This document shows, piece after piece, positions 42,641 to 61,290 of a stretch of 64,000 nucleotides of DNA. Position 1 is the first letter of the stretch. Each line of letters begins with the position of its first letter. Made by a program: the position numbers and the translations under genes. Below the pieces are notes generated by a model. The model was not told the DNA's origin. It saw only the letters and a list, made by a program, of their open reading frames with translations, and ran no database searches. The stretch is from Thermococcus zilligii AN1 (lineage in GTDB: Archaea > Methanobacteriota_B > Thermococci > Thermococcales > Thermococcaceae), in NCBI RefSeq assembly GCF_000258515.1, contig NZ_AJLF01000001.1:124001-188000 (forward strand). Direction: 5' to 3'.

Positions 42641-45600
42641 ATGAAGGCGATCTACCGGGAGATGTGCCCGAACTGTGCAGGTGGAATATCCGATGACAGG
42701 CTTGTGATGAAAAATCCCTGTGCAGAATGTCTTGACGAACCCGTCCAAGCTGATTCCTATTTTCAACTCGTTTCTGCCGTGAGAAGCGCCCTTAACCTCA
42801 GGGGGACCCTGAGAGAGTGGGAGAGGATATACCGGCTTGAAAGCCAGGTTAGAGAAGTCGAGGAGCTCTTTAAGAAGGCCACCGGCTTTACCTTCTGGAG
42901 TGCTCAGAGAACCTGGGTGAAGCGCCTTTTAAAGGGAAGGAGCTTTTCGATAATAGCCCCTACCGGCATGGGGAAGAGCACCTTTGGAGCCTTCATGGCC
43001 CTCTGGCATGCCACCAAGGGCAAGAAAAGCTACCTAATCGTCCCGACGACGCCCCTGGTTATTCAGACGGTCAAGAAGATAAATTCAATGGGCGAGAGGC
43101 TCGGGCTAAACGTCAAGCTCGCCTACTACCACGGCAGCCTCAACAGGAAGGAAAAAGAGGAGATGCTCGCCCTCATAGACTCGGGAGAGTACGATATCCT
43201 CGTAACGAGCGCCCAGTGGTTAGCAAGAAACTTCGAGGACAGGCTGAAGGGGAGGCACTTCGACTTCATCTTCGTCGATGACGTTGACGCTTTTCTGAAG
43301 GCGAGCAAGAACATAGACCGCTCCCTCTATCTGCTCGGCTTCAACGAGGAGGTTATTCAGAAGGCCTGGGAGATAGTGAGGCTCAAGAAGGGCATGGGCC
43401 GCTACCTCAACGGGAACTCGGAGGACAAAAACGGGAAGCTCAGAGAGCTGGACAAGCAGATTGAGAAAATCCAGAGGGAGATAGAGTCCTACAAGCGGGA
43501 GAACAGGGTAGGCGTCATGATAATCGCTTCCGCCACCGGCAGTGCCAGGGGCGACAGGATAAAGCTCTACCGCGAGCTTCTCGGCTTTGAAGTGGGAAGC
43601 GGAAAGAGTGCCCTCAGGAACGTCATCGACAGCTATCTTAAGCCGGGCAGGGACGTCAGGGAACAGGTGGCAGAGCTACTGGAAAGGCTCGGCAGGGGCG
43701 GGCTGATTTTCGTCCCCATCGACCAGGGCCTTGGCTACGCCGAGGAGCTTGTTAGATACCTTCGCGAGCGCGGTTTCAGGGTAGAACTCGCGAGCTCAAA
43801 GAACAGAAAAGCCGTCGAGAGGTTTGAAAACGGAGAGGCAGATTACCTCGTCGGCGTCGCAACCTACTACGGCTCAATAGTGAGGGGCCTTGACCTGCCA
43901 CACCTCATACGCTACGCCGTCTTCACCGGTGTGCCCAAGTTCAGGTTTAGCGTAGACCTCGAGAGGCCGACCATCTACAGGGCCCTGGGCCTTCTAAGTG
44001 AGGTAATGGACTTCCTGGGCGATGAGGACAGGAGAACCGCCGAGAGGCTGTACTCAAGGCTGGGGAGACTCATAAGGAACATACCTCAGTTTGAACTGCT
44101 GAGGATAGAAGAGGCCTTAGCTGAGGGCCTTCCCATTGAGAACGAGTTCCACAACCATGTTTTGGGGGTTTTCCGCGAGCTGGTTGAATTCCTCAGGAAG
44201 GCGCTCCGCAAGGAGGAGGTTCTGAAGAAACTCGCCGAAGACCCCTTCGTGAGCCTCACCGAAGAGGGCGGCAAGTGGTTCATCGAGATACCCGACGTTA
44301 GAACCTACATCCAGGCAACTGGAAGAACGAGCAGGCTCTTCGCCGGTGGCATCACCAAGGGTCTCAGCGTTCTCCTGGTTGACAACGAGAAGGTCTTCAA
44401 CGGCTTAGTGAGGCAGATGCGCTGGCGCTTCATGGAGTTCAAGATGGTTCCCTTCGAGGAGCTGAACCTCGGCGAGGTCCTCAGGCAAATCGACGAGGAC
44501 AGGGAGAAGGTTCGCCTTGTCATGGAGGGCAGGATAAGCACCAAGGTAAAGGATTTGGTCAAGTCCTCGCTCATGATAGTCGAGAGCCCCAACAAGGCAA
44601 GAACCATAGCGAACTTCTTCGGCCAGCCGAGCAAGACGAGGATAGGCGACTTGGTTGCCTATGAGGTGAGCATAGGGAACAGGATGTTGACGATTTTAGC
44701 CAGCGGAGGGCACATGTTCGACCTTGTGACAAACGAAGGCTACCACGGCGTTTTGATAGAGAAAAAAGACGATGTGATGAAGTTTATCCCAGTCTACGAC
44801 ACCATAAAGCGCTGCCGCGATTGTGGTCACCAGTTCGTCGACTGGGAGAATAAGGGCGTCTGCCCGCGCTGTGGGAGCACAAACGTTCGCGATGCCCTGG
44901 AGAACGTTGTAGCCATGCGCGAGCTGGCGCAGGAAGTTGATGAGATTCTCATCGCGACCGACCCTGACACCGAGGGTGAGAAGATAGCCTGGGACATAAG
45001 GAACGTGCTGAGCCCATACACGCCGAACATCAGGAGGACGGAGTTCCACGAAGTTACGAGGCCGGCCATACTCAAGGCAATCGAAGAGGCAAGGGACGTA
45101 AACGAGAACCGCGTTGAGGCCCAGATAGTCAGAAGAATAGAAGACAGGTGGATAGGTTTCGAGCTGAGCCAGGAACTCCAGCGCGTCTTTGAGAACAGGA
45201 ACCTCTCCGCGGGGAGAGTTCAGACGCCCGTTTTGGGCTGGATAATCGAGCGCTATAAGGAGTTCAGCGAGAGCGAGACCTATTTCCTTGGCCTGACCCT
45301 TGAGAACGGCCTGCAAGTGACAGTAGAGATAGGGAACGACGGGAAGAACGTGGAACCGCCGGAGTACGTCACGGTTGAGGAAGTTCAGCTCGAGGAGAGG
45401 GAGCTCAATCCATCTCCACCTTACACGACCGATGCAATGCTGAAGGACGCCTCGACCTTCCTGAAGCTTTCCGCACCGGAGACGATGAGACTGGCGCAGG
45501 ATCTGTTCGAGGCGGGTCTGTGTGTCACTCCCGATACGCTGGTAACCCTCGCCGATGGAAGGCTGATGAAGATTGAAGAGGCCGTTAAATCTGGGGAAGG

Positions 45601-47776
45601 GAACCTTCTTGCCGTTAACGGGCTGAGGGCCAAAGAAGCTAAGGCTATCAAGTTCTGGGAGATCGAGTGGGACGGGCCGCTGAAGGTCGTCAAACTGAAG
45701 AACGGCCACGAAATAAGGGCTACTCCAGACCACGGGCTACTTGTTATCCGGGACGGAAAACCAGGCTGGGTCTCGGCGAAGAACATACGGCCCGGTGACT
45801 ACGTTGCCTTTGCCTACAACACTGGACACCCTGGGAAAAAGAAGTACTCACTCCTTCGGGTGCTCATTGAGCTTGGCATCACGGACGTCATGGTTGAACT
45901 TGACAGAGACCACTTTGATAGCACCATCGCTCCCATCGTGAAGGCAAAAGTCCGGACGAGCACCAAATACAAATACCTGAGAAACAGGGTAGTCCCCCTC
46001 AAAAAGCTCCTTGAATGGGGTGTTAAAGATTTTGAGCACCATGTCAGATCCCTCTACCGCCAGAGGGCAGGAAGCAAGAGGATTCCAAACTTCGAGCTTG
46101 ACGAAAAGTTCTGGTACGTCTTCGGTCTGGTTCTCGGTGATGGAACACTAAGGGATGGCAAGGTTCTCATATCCCAGACACCCCCCAAGCAGGTTAAGGA
46201 GATACTCGAGGAGACGTTCCCGTTCCTCCACGTATTCGAGACCACAAAGCAGGCGGGCTTCTCAAACTCGATACTCGTAGAGCTCTTCAGGAGGCTCGGT
46301 AGCCGTTCGGGAGAGCTCCACCCAATAGTCTTCACCCTGCAGGAAGAGATGATAAACGCAATGATAGCGGGCTACTTTGACACCGACGGAACCTTCTCAC
46401 TTCTCCACGACAAGAAAGGCGTTAACCTTAGGGCAACCCTAACTTCCAAGCGCTCTGAAGTGCTCAAAAAGATCAGTGTTTACCTCCACCAGATTGGCGT
46501 TCTGAACTACCTGAAAGAGGACAAAAGGACTGGAGTCTGGGACCTTATAATAAGCAACCGCAGTCTCGAGGTTTTCAGGGAGAAGATTTATCCATACCTC
46601 AGAATCAGGAGGAAGCAGTTCGAGGAGGTCTATTCGGCTTACAGAGGAACGAGAAAGCCAATGGAGTCTGACCTGATACCCGCTGGGGAGCTTGTGGGGG
46701 AATTAGTGTTCCCTGATGGCTCTAGGGCAAAGATCCTCAGAGAAACGGGAATAGACGTCTGGAACTGGCTGAAGAAACCGGGTAGCGTGCCCAGAGACAA
46801 ACTCGCCAAAGCCCTAGAATACGCTGAAGATGGGCCCGCTAAGGATTACCTCCGCTCTCTAGTCGAGGCAAACGTTACCTGGGTTCCCGTCATAGAGGTC
46901 GGGGAAGAACACTACACAGGAAAGCTCTACGACTTCACAACAACGACGGAGAACTTCCTCTCAAACGGCATCGTTTCTCACAACTGCACATACCACAGAA
47001 CGGACTCAAGCCATGTCAGCAACACCGGAATAGAGGTGGCGAAGGAATACATAACCCAGGAGATAGGCGAGAGATACTTCAAGCCGAGGCCATGGGGCGA
47101 AGAGGGAACCCATGAGGCCATAAGGCCGACGAGGCCGATTGACACCGGCAGGCTCATGCAGCTGGTCAGAGACGGAGTAATCCAGCTCCCCAAGAACCTC
47201 ACCAAGAACCACTACCGTCTCTACGACATGATATTCAGGCGTTTCATGACAAGCCAGATGGTCCCGGCGAAGATACTCTACGAGAAGGCAATCATAAACG
47301 CCGGGGTTGGAAAGGTTGAGCTTGAAGGCTACGTTGAAATCCTTGAGGACGGCTGGACGAGGCTCAGGAACCCGCCGCTTAAACAGATGCAGAGGCTTGA
47401 AAAAGGCGCGAGACTGAAGGTTATCGAGGCCAAAAAGTGGAAGGCCCCCAGGGTTTCGCTCTACGGCCAGGGTGACATAATAGCCCTCATGAAGGAGAGG
47501 AAGATAGGAAGGCCCTCAACGTATGCCAAGATAGTCGAGACCCTGCTCAGGAGGGGCTACGTCCTTGAGACCAAGGGCAGGAAGAAGCTTGTACCCACTG
47601 AAAAGGGCATAAAGGTCTACCACTACCTCGTCAGCAAATACCGCGGCCTCGTCAGCGAGGAAAGGACAAGGGAGCTTGAGGAGATAATGGACAGGATAGA
47701 AGAGGGCAAAGCGGACTGCCAGGAAGTTCTTAACGGGCTCTACTCGGAGATAGCGGAATTCATAGGCAAAGCTTGA
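42641..47776 (+). CDS. rgy: Reverse gyrase with an intein
   Basis: A 1711-residue precursor; removal of the intein leaves 1223 residues, the normal size. Order: N-terminal zinc finger ([11 protein letters not shown]...CAEC), SF2 helicase-like part with Walker [10 protein letters not shown] and FVDDVDAF in place of DEAD, second zinc finger (CRDCGHQF...CPRCGS), Toprim ([25 protein letters not shown]) and type IA topoisomerase with the active Tyr in [12 protein letters not shown]. It introduces positive supercoils and marks hyperthermophily. RBS GGGGAGG. Followed by trmBL2 as in T. kodakarensis. Confidence 0.98.
45521..46984 (+). other. Intein in reverse gyrase (488 aa, LAGLIDADG endonuclease)
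   Basis: The intein begins at Cys 961 ([14 protein letters not shown]), has block [11 protein letters not shown], two LAGLIDADG helices ([10 protein letters not shown] and [11 protein letters not shown]) and ends NGIVSHN before a Cys (+1). Splicing joins EAGL to CTYHRTDSS, two residues before the catalytic Tyr. A reverse gyrase intein is known in Pyrococcus and Thermococcus at a comparable site. Splice and endonuclease residues look intact, so it should be active. Confidence 0.95.
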
Positions 47777-57854: not shown

Positions 57855-58160
57855 TTATGATTCTGTTTTTCCCAAGATGTTTTTCCACGAATAGCTGGCC
57901 TCCGCAAGCTCGCTCACTGTGAGTTTCTTTTCCCCCACTATTTCCGGCTCCAGCTCCTTTAGAATCCCCAGGAGCTTCTCCCGGGGCATGGCTTCTTCGT
58001 CGAAAACCGCGAAGCCCCTCCTGGTGTAGCCGTTGAGGAAAACCCTCCAGATGCCGAGCTCCTTCTCGAGCTCGTACTGCTTTACCGTGGCCTTCTCCCA
58101 GTCGATGTTCCCAAACTTGAGGTCGAGCCTCACGAGCTCCTTATCGGGCCTGACGCTCAT
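57855..58160 (-). CDS. 101-residue protein downstream of the Tes-like enzyme
   Basis: A small alpha/beta protein: MSVRPDKELVRLDLKFGNID, strand WRVFLNGYTRRGFAVFDEEA, and helices PREKLLGILKELEPEIVG and TVSELAEASYSWKNIL. Start ATG 58160 follows GAGGTGAGG and lies about 10 bp after the radical SAM stop, so they are probably one operon. No family recognised. Confidence 0.7.
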   Translation of the reverse strand: MSVRPDKELVRLDLKFGNIDWEKATVKQYELEKELGIWRVFLNGYTRRGFAVFDEEAMPREKLLGILKELEPEIVGEKKLTVSELAEASYSWKNILGKTES

Positions 58161-58170
58161 GCCCCTCACC

Positions 58171-61100
58171 TCACTCCTTCTGGCTGAAATAGTTCTCGAT
58201 GTCGATGTAGGTCTTCCTGTAGAGCTCGCTGTTCCTCATCTTCTCCACGAACTCCCTGTTCCTGAAGTACTTGTCCTTCCTGTAGTCCCAGTCGGGGTGG
58301 AGTGCCTTCCACTCGTCCCAGGTGTAGCTGAACTGGGCCTGGACTTTGTCGCGGTAGAGCTCCGGGATCACGTTGAATGTACAGAATGGTACAATCCTTC
58401 CGTCGGGCATCGCGTAGTGTATGACGCAGCGCTCAACCCTCTCCACGTCGTAGTTGTACTCGTCCATGAAGTGCATTAGGCCTATGAAGAGCGCGTTCTC
58501 GTGGAACTTTCCGAGGGCGTCGTAGTTGCCGTGCATGAATGCGTTCTTTATGAGGTCGAGGACGCTCAGCCCCCTGGGCGCGTACTCCTCGTCGTAGAAG
58601 GAGCGGAACTTCATGAATATTTCTGCGCCGAGCTTGAGCTTCTTGAGCCTGCCCATGGTCTTCCACTGCTCTATCTCTTCCGCCTTCTCCTCGAGGAACT
58701 CCACGAAGCCCTCGACGTCTATGAACCTCGGTATCGGAACGACGCGCCTGTTCTCCCTGTCAAGGAAGACGTAGGTCGCGGCCCCGCAGGCGAAGTGGCT
58801 CGTCATGTAGTAGCGTGAGCCCGTAAAGGCCTCAAAGAACCTCGCTATGTGGCCCGCTATCGGTATCGGGTACCAGTCTTCTTTGGCTATTGCGCCGTTC
58901 GTCTGCTCCTCAATCCTCTTGATGGCGCCGGGTATCGTTATCCTGAAGCGCTGGCGCTCCGTCTTGGGAACCCTTCCGACCTGGGAAATGGGCTGGAAGT
59001 TGACTCCCCTGACTATGTCAAGGTGGTTGAGGCCGAAGTTGATTATCGCCCCGAGCTCGTGGTCGTTGACGTTCCTTATTGTTGTTGGCACGAGCACTAT
59101 CCCGGGCCCATTGGCTTTCCTCACGTTCTCGAAGATGAGGGGAACTTCCCAGTGGTTCTTCCAGTTGGTCTGTGGCGTCATTCCGTCGTAGCTCAAATAG
59201 AGTGTGTTGACCCCGGCCTCGCGGATTTTCTTGACGAGCTCGGGCTCGAAGGCGAGCTTTATACCGTCGGTGTTTAGCTGGACGTGGTCGTAGCCCTCCT
59301 CCTTGGCGATTTTGATTATCTCGATGATGTCCTCCCTGAGGGTAGGCTCTCCACCGGTAAACTGGACTGCGTTGGCCCCAATCGGGTGCTCCTTCTTGGC
59401 GTTTCTGAGCATGGTGCGTATCTGCTCAAGGGTTGGCTCGTAAATCGGCTGGCCCTCCTTGGCGTAGAAGAAGCAGTTGCTTATGAGCACCCCGTCGCCA
59501 GCGACGAAAGCGTGCTCCTCTGCGTCGACCTCGAGGTCGTAAACGTAGCCGCTGTATTCCTCGGTTTCGATCCTCTCCACGGTGTCCACGAAGAAGTCCC
59601 CGACCTCCGCGGAATTCCCCTTTCCAATTTCGCCGAGCCGTCCCCTGTGGCCCCCCCTGAGTTTGAGGAGTTCAAGCAGCTTCACCATGTCCTGACCTGC
59701 TATGTAGAGCCTGTGGAGGTCGTGGTTGGCCCCTTTCATTTTCTCCTTTGGAACCGTGTAAACCCTCGCGAAAACTCCGAGGGAAGCCAGGAGGTAAAGC
59801 ATGTCTCTGACTAGCTCCCTTGAAACGCTGGCGTAGCCTATGTTAAGGTGCTTCTTTCCCCTAACTGCATGCCCGTCGCCGTTGAAGAGCCCGCTCAGGA
59901 GGGCAACCCTGGCCTCGAAGGGGAACCTCAGGAAGTCCCTCGGGAGCCTCTTGTTCTCGGCCTTCTCGGGGATTCCCAGGGCGTACTTAAATACGAGCCT
60001 CATGAGCCCGCTGCCGATCACTATCTGCTTCGCCTTGCCCTTCCACTCGAGCGAGCTGTGCGGTAGGCCGAGTCTTTCGAGGATTCCGGTTATCTCCCTC
60101 TCAACGTCCTCGCGGGCAACTGTTATCCTGAGATCACTGTCGGTGTAATGACCGTCCGCGATGAAGTAGCCGATTAACTTTGCCAGTTCCGGGGTAACCT
60201 CGAGTCGGGATGGGAGCTCATGGGAAGTTCCATCTCTTCCGAGCCTGAAGTTGCCATCTGCGTTGAGTTTATAGAACGCATTTAATGGTATGGAGTCGCC
60301 GTCCCTCCACCTGTAAACGGCATCGCCGTACTCTTCCCTGAGCGGCGAAAGATCCAGCCCGCTGATCCCACTGACGTAAATCTTCCCCTTTTCCTCGTCC
60401 GGAAGTTCCTTAAACGCCTCCAGGAGGTCTATCTCAAACCTCTCCCCTTCCCCGTTAAAGCTCCAGAGGAGAACCAGCTCGTCGCCCGGTTCAAGCTCGT
60501 CGGCCCTCTTCTTCACGAGTTCGCCGCCGGAGTAAACGAGGAACTTGTGCTCTGGGGTGGTTCTTATGGTTCTGCCTGTGTGGGTCACTATCCTGTAAAC
60601 CTTGCCCTCGTGCTTCCTTCTCAGGAATTTGGTCACCCCTGCCCACTCTGCCTTTCCGTCCCTGAAGGTGAGCACCTCAAGCCAGTCCGGGGTTCCGTAC
60701 TCGCCCGAGAAGCCGTCTATTTCAACACGGTATTTGAACTCCACGAGACTGGCTATGTCCTTCATCTTAGCTATCAGAGGCTTCCCATGGACCCGGAAGA
60801 GAACCTCCTCGTCCCCTGGGAGACAATACCAGCACGATAAGTTACACCTATTGGTCAAAACTATGTTCAGAAGGTTCGTGTGGGAGCGGTGCCTCGGGCA
60901 GAGGCCGCAGTCGAGCGGGCAGTTCATTCCGCTGTTCTCGACGTTGGTGCTGTAGAGCTCCTTCCTCTCCCAGCGCCACTCGGAGAAGCGGTGATAGAGC
61001 TCAACGTCTTCATAGTAAAGGTCGGTTATCATTCCCTCCGGGCACTTCTTGGTTATCCAGACCTTCCCGTCCTTCTCCCACACAAGGGCAGGGACGATTC

Positions 61101-61290
61101 TCCTCGTCTCGGGGCAGAGTGAGTGTGTCCTGCGGGGGAGATCACCGCCGTAGGCCCTGCTCGCTTTCTCGAGAAGTGAGTAGAATTCCTCCTCGCTTAT
61201 TTCGGGGAACTCAACGATGTCCCTGACCCTCTTAGTTGATTCCGCGAACTCTTTCTCCCCGCTGGGGATTTCACCGAGGTTCTCAGCCAT
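58171..61290 (-). CDS. tes: Radical SAM enzyme, probable tetraether lipid synthase (Tes), with intein
   Basis: A 1039-residue precursor; without the intein, 589 residues. It resembles the COG1964/MJ0619 family, shown to join phytanyl chains into tetraether (GDGT) lipids. Features: N-terminal cluster CPLDCGLCPRHRSHT, radical SAM motif NRCNLSCWY|C, FTGGEPTLRED, and C-terminal FACGAATYVF and VPFCTFN for a further cluster. The SAM motif is completed only after splicing. RBS GGTGATGAG before ATG 61290. Tes assignment follows the multi-cluster pattern and is an inference. Confidence 0.85.
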   Translation of the reverse strand: MAENLGEIPSGEKEFAESTKRVRDIVEFPEISEEEFYSLLEKASRAYGGDLPRRTHSLCPETRRIVPALVWEKDGKVWITKKCPEGMITDLYYEDVELYHRFSEWRWERKELYSTNVENSGMNCPLDCGLCPRHRSHTNLLNIVLTNRCNLSCWYCLPGDEEVLFRVHGKPLIAKMKDIASLVEFKYRVEIDGFSGEYGTPDWLEVLTFRDGKAEWAGVTKFLRRKHEGKVYRIVTHTGRTIRTTPEHKFLVYSGGELVKKRADELEPGDELVLLWSFNGEGERFEIDLLEAFKELPDEEKGKIYVSGISGLDLSPLREEYGDAVYRWRDGDSIPLNAFYKLNADGNFRLGRDGTSHELPSRLEVTPELAKLIGYFIADGHYTDSDLRITVAREDVEREITGILERLGLPHSSLEWKGKAKQIVIGSGLMRLVFKYALGIPEKAENKRLPRDFLRFPFEARVALLSGLFNGDGHAVRGKKHLNIGYASVSRELVRDMLYLLASLGVFARVYTVPKEKMKGANHDLHRLYIAGQDMVKLLELLKLRGGHRGRLGEIGKGNSAEVGDFFVDTVERIETEEYSGYVYDLEVDAEEHAFVAGDGVLISNCFFYAKEGQPIYEPTLEQIRTMLRNAKKEHPIGANAVQFTGGEPTLREDIIEIIKIAKEEGYDHVQLNTDGIKLAFEPELVKKIREAGVNTLYLSYDGMTPQTNWKNHWEVPLIFENVRKANGPGIVLVPTTIRNVNDHELGAIINFGLNHLDIVRGVNFQPISQVGRVPKTERQRFRITIPGAIKRIEEQTNGAIAKEDWYPIPIAGHIARFFEAFTGSRYYMTSHFACGAATYVFLDRENRRVVPIPRFIDVEGFVEFLEEKAEEIEQWKTMGRLKKLKLGAEIFMKFRSFYDEEYAPRGLSVLDLIKNAFMHGNYDALGKFHENALFIGLMHFMDEYNYDVERVERCVIHYAMPDGRIVPFCTFNVIPELYRDKVQAQFSYTWDEWKALHPDWDYRKDKYFRNREFVEKMRNSELYRKTYIDIENYFSQKE
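59476..60825 (-). other. Intein inside the radical SAM CxxxCxxC motif (450 aa)
   Basis: It starts at Cys 156 (CLPGDEEVLFRVHGKPL), has block B RTTPEHKFLV, LAGLIDADG helices (LIGYFIADGH and LLSGLFNGDGH), and ends AFVAGDGVLISN before Cys (+1, CFFYAKEG). The third cluster cysteine of the host is the +1 nucleophile. The residue before the terminal Asn is Ser, not the usual His. Confidence 0.95.

Follow-up and report, generated by a model that had tools for sequence, protein, structure and literature searches.

A putative mobile class 1 intein at the radical-SAM cluster motif of a predicted tetraether lipid synthase in Thermococcus zilligii

Results

The window, a stretch of 64,000 nucleotides of the Thermococcus zilligii AN1 genome, contains a reading frame that is, by profile score and motifs, a gene for tetraether lipid synthase (Tes), with the joining of phytanyl chains to GDGT or macrocyclic archaeol as its predicted activity (Table 1). 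Its protein scores 2131.5 bits against the NCBIfam model NF045703, "tetraether lipid synthase Tes, intein-containing" (cut-off 1700), and 683.9 bits against NF045702, "tetraether lipid synthase Tes" (cut-off 450), and the two matches bear out the host proposed by a sequence-only reading of this DNA. The Pfam models Radical_SAM, Intein_splicing and LAGLIDADG_3 each match above cut-off, and as a MoaA protein the product stays below it (68.4 vs. 325.25 bits for TIGR02668 and 72.5 vs. 284.05 bits for TIGR02666). The exteins can be aligned with phmmer to the M. jannaschii enzyme 7TOL over almost the entire length of that enzyme, and the metal motifs of Tes are complete, consisting of C149/C153/C606 after splicing, C124/C128/C131 and the PF23545 domain; a rubredoxin-like metal site is known in the solved relative (PMC9433317). 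A 104-aa frame lacking an NCBIfam match (57855..58169, minus strand) begins directly behind the tes stop and probably belongs to the same operon.

Table 1. Features of the intein-containing tes gene, in window coordinates
Feature	Position	Strand	Description	Basis
tes precursor gene	58171..61290	-	N-extein, intein and C-extein, 1039 aa	ORF and NCBIfam match
N-extein	60826..61290	-	residues 1-155, ending ...NRCNLSCWY	comparison with intein-free genes
PF23545 domain	61012..61137	-	N-terminal zinc-ribbon/rubredoxin-like domain, residues 52-93	Pfam match
First CX3CX2C	60898..60921	-	C124, C128, C131; putative auxiliary cluster	analogy with M. jannaschii C73/C77/C80
Cys-7 (C149)	60844..60846	-	radical-SAM cluster ligand 1	
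Cys-3 (C153)	60832..60834	-	radical-SAM cluster ligand 2, candidate disulfide partner of Cys1	
Tes intein	59476..60825	-	450 aa, residues 156-605, CLPGDEEV...GVLISN	motifs and comparison
Cys1 (C156)	60823..60825	-	splicing nucleophile 1, in the third-ligand place of the precursor	
Intein block B	60544..60561	-	TTPEHK (TxxH)	
LAGLIDADG motif 1	60145..60186	-	LAKLIGYFIADGHY, catalytic Asp kept	
LAGLIDADG motif 2	59866..59901	-	LLSGLFNGDGHA, catalytic Asp kept	
Intein block F	59500..59550	-	GYVYDLEVDAEEHAFVA (YDLEV...EHAF), Asp and His kept	
Intein block G	59476..59499	-	GDGVLISN, terminal Asn, penultimate Ser not His	
Cys+1 (C606)	59473..59475	-	splicing nucleophile 2, radical-SAM cluster ligand 3 once spliced	
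C-extein	58171..59475	-	residues 606-1039 and stop, starting CFFYAKEGQP	alignment with 7TOL

Both ends of the intein are fixed by more than motifs, since 67 intein-free Thermococcales genes read without interruption across the site as C(N/D)L(S/N/A)CWYCFFY(A/H)xEG; the interval that the sequence-only reading had assigned to the intein proved exact to the base. The predicted junction peptide of the spliced protein is CNLSCWYCFFYAK, and the sequence expected after ligation is that seen in the intein-free orthologues. Alignment with 7TOL and with the intein-free genes further agrees with the earlier proposal that the +1 residue of the intein provides the last cysteine of the radical-SAM CX3CX2C motif. 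The same reading held that the linear motif is broken until the intein leaves, and here it was mistaken: the intein Cys1 stands right behind CNLSCWY, so that the precursor still spells CX3CX2C with Cys1 as its third cysteine, and phmmer aligns C156 and C606 to one and the same cysteine of 7TOL. The unspliced precursor should nonetheless be inactive, as had been claimed, the reason being not the loss of the motif but a barrel divided by 450 residues, with its C-terminal part displaced.

Judged by its motifs, the insert is a class 1 intein, and both of its LAGLIDADG motifs look intact. It has Cys1, the TxxH of block B, the Asp and His of block F, a terminal Asn and a Cys at +1, and its LAGLIDADG_3 match of 69.8 bits (Pfam) includes both catalytic Asp residues. 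Among the 29 copies of the intein found at the Tes site, the first residue is always Cys, and both LAGLIDADG Asp residues are kept in 28, the exception being L130, where motif 2 reads NGNG. Cys1 is the only cysteine of the window intein, and a disulfide of Cys1 is thus possible only with cysteines of the exteins.

The sequence-only reading had named a second, intein-free copy of Tes as evidence against its idea. None exists in the whole genome (1.76 Mb, 99.9% complete), which holds a single Tes and whose best other radical-SAM match is an ordinary MoaA. The search for inteins at the same site that the reading had suggested was productive, yielding the curated model NF045703, 17 Thermococcaceae genomes and other archaeal lineages. 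Within the Thermococcaceae, 87 of 94 genomes have a Tes match, and the intein lies within one frame in 16 genomes and is split over two contigs in G088; 67 of the 84 rows of the extein tree are intein-free, including the nearest host relatives of the window Tes. Mapped on this host tree, presence and absence require at least 13 changes, 10 of which are forced by well-supported branches. Outside the family, inteins at this site were found in MAGs of Archaeoglobales (L130, L135), Brockarchaeota (L131), Desulfurococcales (L132-L134, L136, L141) and others. A further MAG, labelled Thermoproteota (L126), has a Thermococcales-like copy with an extein 75% and an intein 66% identical to those of the window, and is either a mis-binned contig or a case of whole-gene transfer. 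Two genomes, G024 (a chromosome of 2,088,737 bases) and G063, gave no Tes match in protein or DNA pattern searches or, above cut-off, with NF045702; the neighbour genes of the tes locus are likewise absent or weakly matched in them, and for G024 the cause may be a stretch missing from the sequence analysed. T. kodakarensis is known to make tetraethers (PMC4870337). In some relatives the gene was flagged for an internal TGA, for which a selenocysteine reading was considered and rejected, the codon being the ordinary stop near the C-terminus.

The intein and its host appear to have had separate histories. Compared with the window, the Brockarchaeota copy (L131) has 48% identity in the extein and 58% in the intein, and a Desulfurococcales copy (L132) 46% and 58%; an intein closer than its extein is the opposite of what joint descent predicts and shows that the intein moves apart from its host. 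Within the Thermococcaceae, divergence is faster in the inteins than in the exteins. Three copies (L018, L019 and L021, from genomes G076, G081 and G077) have almost identical inteins in exteins about 0.5 apart in dS, and between L018 and L021 (G076/G077) dS amounts to 0.028 for the intein vs. 0.535 for the extein. From these sequences, the three inteins are the product of recent transfer. For most intein pairs dN/dS lies at 0.03-0.15, which indicates purifying selection on the insert, intein and extein both being kept functional. Homing elements cycle through invasion, endonuclease decay and loss, and the G088 copy (L093, L092/L034), having lost the first LAGLIDADG Asp and, by deletion, motif 2 while retaining the splicing residues, is by its motifs an endonuclease-dead decay intermediate of that cycle. 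Patchy presence, the mismatch between intein and host divergence and this decayed copy together point to a homing element.

A native disulfide trap between Cys-3 and Cys1 is described for the Pyrococcus abyssi "MoaA" intein, a finding that passages of PMC3922620 and PMC10663303 credit to Callahan et al. 2011. Our genome G004 is that of P. abyssi GE5, its second contig matching the plasmid NC_001773.1 of the strain at 100% over 3444 bases. In this genome, intein matches fall in frames for RIR1, IF-2, MCM, a KlbA-like ATPase, RFC, VMA, RtcB and PolII and in Tes, and among the intein-bearing frames found, Tes is the only radical-SAM gene. The P. abyssi Tes is a frame of 1052 residues with an intein at the identical site, a Cys at -3 and Cys1, and the intein is 67% identical to that of the window; the genuine MoaA, a frame of 329 residues scoring 414.5 bits against TIGR02668, is intein-free. 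With Tes the sole intein-bearing radical-SAM gene found and the true MoaA uninterrupted, we strongly infer, by elimination, that the intein published under the name "MoaA" is the one in Tes, and the weak score of P. abyssi Tes as a MoaA (59.4 bits, TIGR02668) would explain the early label.

Discussion

The insert is very probably a selfish, mobile class 1 homing-endonuclease intein that sits at the most conserved spot of tes, splices itself out constitutively, and is sensitive to redox conditions only incidentally. The sequences show the junctions, the motifs, the single tes copy, the distribution and the transfer; for T. zilligii, we infer splicing in the cell, endonuclease activity (from the pattern of transfer) and an oxidation block. 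The intein would be removed after translation by an N-to-S shift at Cys1, transesterification to Cys+1 and cyclisation of the Asn. Ligation of CNLSCWY with CFFYAKEG would restore the radical-SAM cluster motif, in which Cys+1 serves as the third ligand; before that, the single-copy Tes, with its barrel split, would be inactive. The element would spread by cutting intein-free tes alleles and would persist by sitting where an imprecise loss would kill Tes. In the precursor, the CxxC pair of Cys-3 and Cys1 could form a disulfide that would halt splicing under oxidation. The pair is automatic, however, since Cys1 comes three residues past a cluster cysteine, and the trap comes free with the site, given that every intein-free Tes likewise uses Cys-3 to bind its cluster; we therefore regard the Cys-3/Cys1 trap as a side effect of where the intein inserts and not as an evolved switch.

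A few observations speak against the homing-element reading. The penultimate residue of the intein is Ser in all 29 copies at the Tes site, and a Ser in place of the usual His can slow Asn cyclisation. Functional inteins with a penultimate residue other than His are known (PMC4031507). Also counting against it, no viral or plasmid vector was found: phage and plasmid collections gave nothing beyond weak hits on inteins or endonucleases of unrelated kinds, and IMG/VR gave none. Finally, the codon signs of flank co-conversion are weak. The codons just before the intein (60826..60861; TTG ACC AAT AGG TGT AAC TTA TCG) are AT-rich for the genome, with a third-position AT of 42% vs. 18% in the remaining extein, and the flank codon test gave p = 0.005 on the N side and nothing on the C side; we take the N-side flank as a weak sign of homing co-conversion.

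Alternatively, in the Thermococcales that have it the Tes intein could be a physiological switch, in which a Cys-3/Cys1 disulfide formed by oxidation, or a cluster on Cys-7, Cys-3 and Cys1, would hold the sole synthase inactive, the fraction of membrane-spanning lipids would follow redox state or iron, and the "MoaA" switch would be a membrane-lipid switch. We think this unlikely; regulation of membrane lipids by the intein in vivo is possible, but a minority reading. An adaptive redox gate would have oxidation lock the precursor through the Cys-3/Cys1 disulfide and so protect or withhold the oxygen-sensitive Tes until conditions turn reducing, leaving tetraether synthesis tuned to redox. The trap reported for the P. 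abyssi intein, if its host is Tes, would suit this idea, as do the lack of any other cysteine in the window intein, which leaves an extein cysteine as the partner, and the retention of the intein in several archaeal lineages. Yet most rows of the Thermococcaceae tree do without the intein, Cys-3 is fixed as a cluster ligand in intein-free Tes and is uninformative about selection for a switch, and the hosts are strict anaerobes. A patchy distribution that moves horizontally, requiring so many changes across the host phylogeny, weighs against regulation as a conserved role, and an evolved redox gate seems to us quite improbable. Of the redox gating envisaged by the sequence-only reading, the trap itself has a reported counterpart in P. 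abyssi, which makes the redox idea plausible, and the patchy spread speaks against the regulatory part.

The other two gates fare worse. Splicing would depend on iron or on the cluster if Cys-7, Cys-3 and Cys1 of the precursor bound a [4Fe-4S] cluster that occupied the Cys1 thiol and so blocked the first splicing step, and the precursor does retain a CX3CX2C whose third position, Cys1, is invariant among the copies. Cys1, however, is also simply the normal splicing nucleophile and, lying in the splicing active site of the folded intein, is probably kept from adopting the geometry of a cluster; we find such a lock barely credible. Temperature dependence is known for inteins of hyperthermophiles, for example that of P. 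horikoshii RadA (review PMC10663303), and splicing confined to near growth temperature would delay active Tes in cold, resting cells, but such dependence is a general property of thermophile inteins, and the patchy distribution weighs here as it does on the redox gate, making a temperature gate very unlikely.

The insertion as such is already known, being curated in NCBIfam: the window protein matches NF045703 (rSAM_Tes_intein) over positions 1-1040 of 1040, with the same host, insertion site and intein length, and the gene is a further member that differs in nothing of substance. The extein domains and metal ligands align nearly full-length with the GDGT/macrocyclic archaeol synthase MJ0619 (PDB 7TOL/7TOM) and with the Tes proteins Saci_0703 and MA_1486, although the solved MJ0619 chain, unlike the window Tes, has no intein. 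The P. abyssi intein shares the site, Cys-3 and Cys1 with that of the window and differs in its published host name, MoaA. With the published host almost certainly being Tes, the redox-trap part of the earlier idea had been published already under that other name. The intein-containing Rv2578c family (NF038136) is also a radical-SAM protein with an intein, but a different host family. The redox trap can be likened to the oxidation-sensitive, cysteine-based splicing of the M. tuberculosis SufB and M. smegmatis DnaBi1 inteins (PMC6195587), which differ from the Tes intein in host, site and disulfide partner.

In the literature searched, no publication mentions both tetraether lipid synthase and an intein, the terms intein and GDGT co-occurring in one paper, a proteome study of T. 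kodakarensis, and linking the redox intein of the P. abyssi "MoaA" to tetraether lipid synthase appears to be new. Should the identity be right, the redox-trapped intein that serves as the standard natural example sits in an enzyme of archaeal membrane-spanning lipids rather than in one of molybdenum cofactor synthesis, and the physiological argument made for MoaA in reviews (PMC10663303) needs a re-test on Tes and lipids. Close relatives with and without the intein offer a natural experiment on its effect upon the host.

The Tes intein has company in this genome, where intein matches occur in about 14 long frames. One of them lies within the window, in a reverse gyrase gene (42641..47776, plus strand; 1453 bits to TIGR01054) with an intein at about residues 961-1452.
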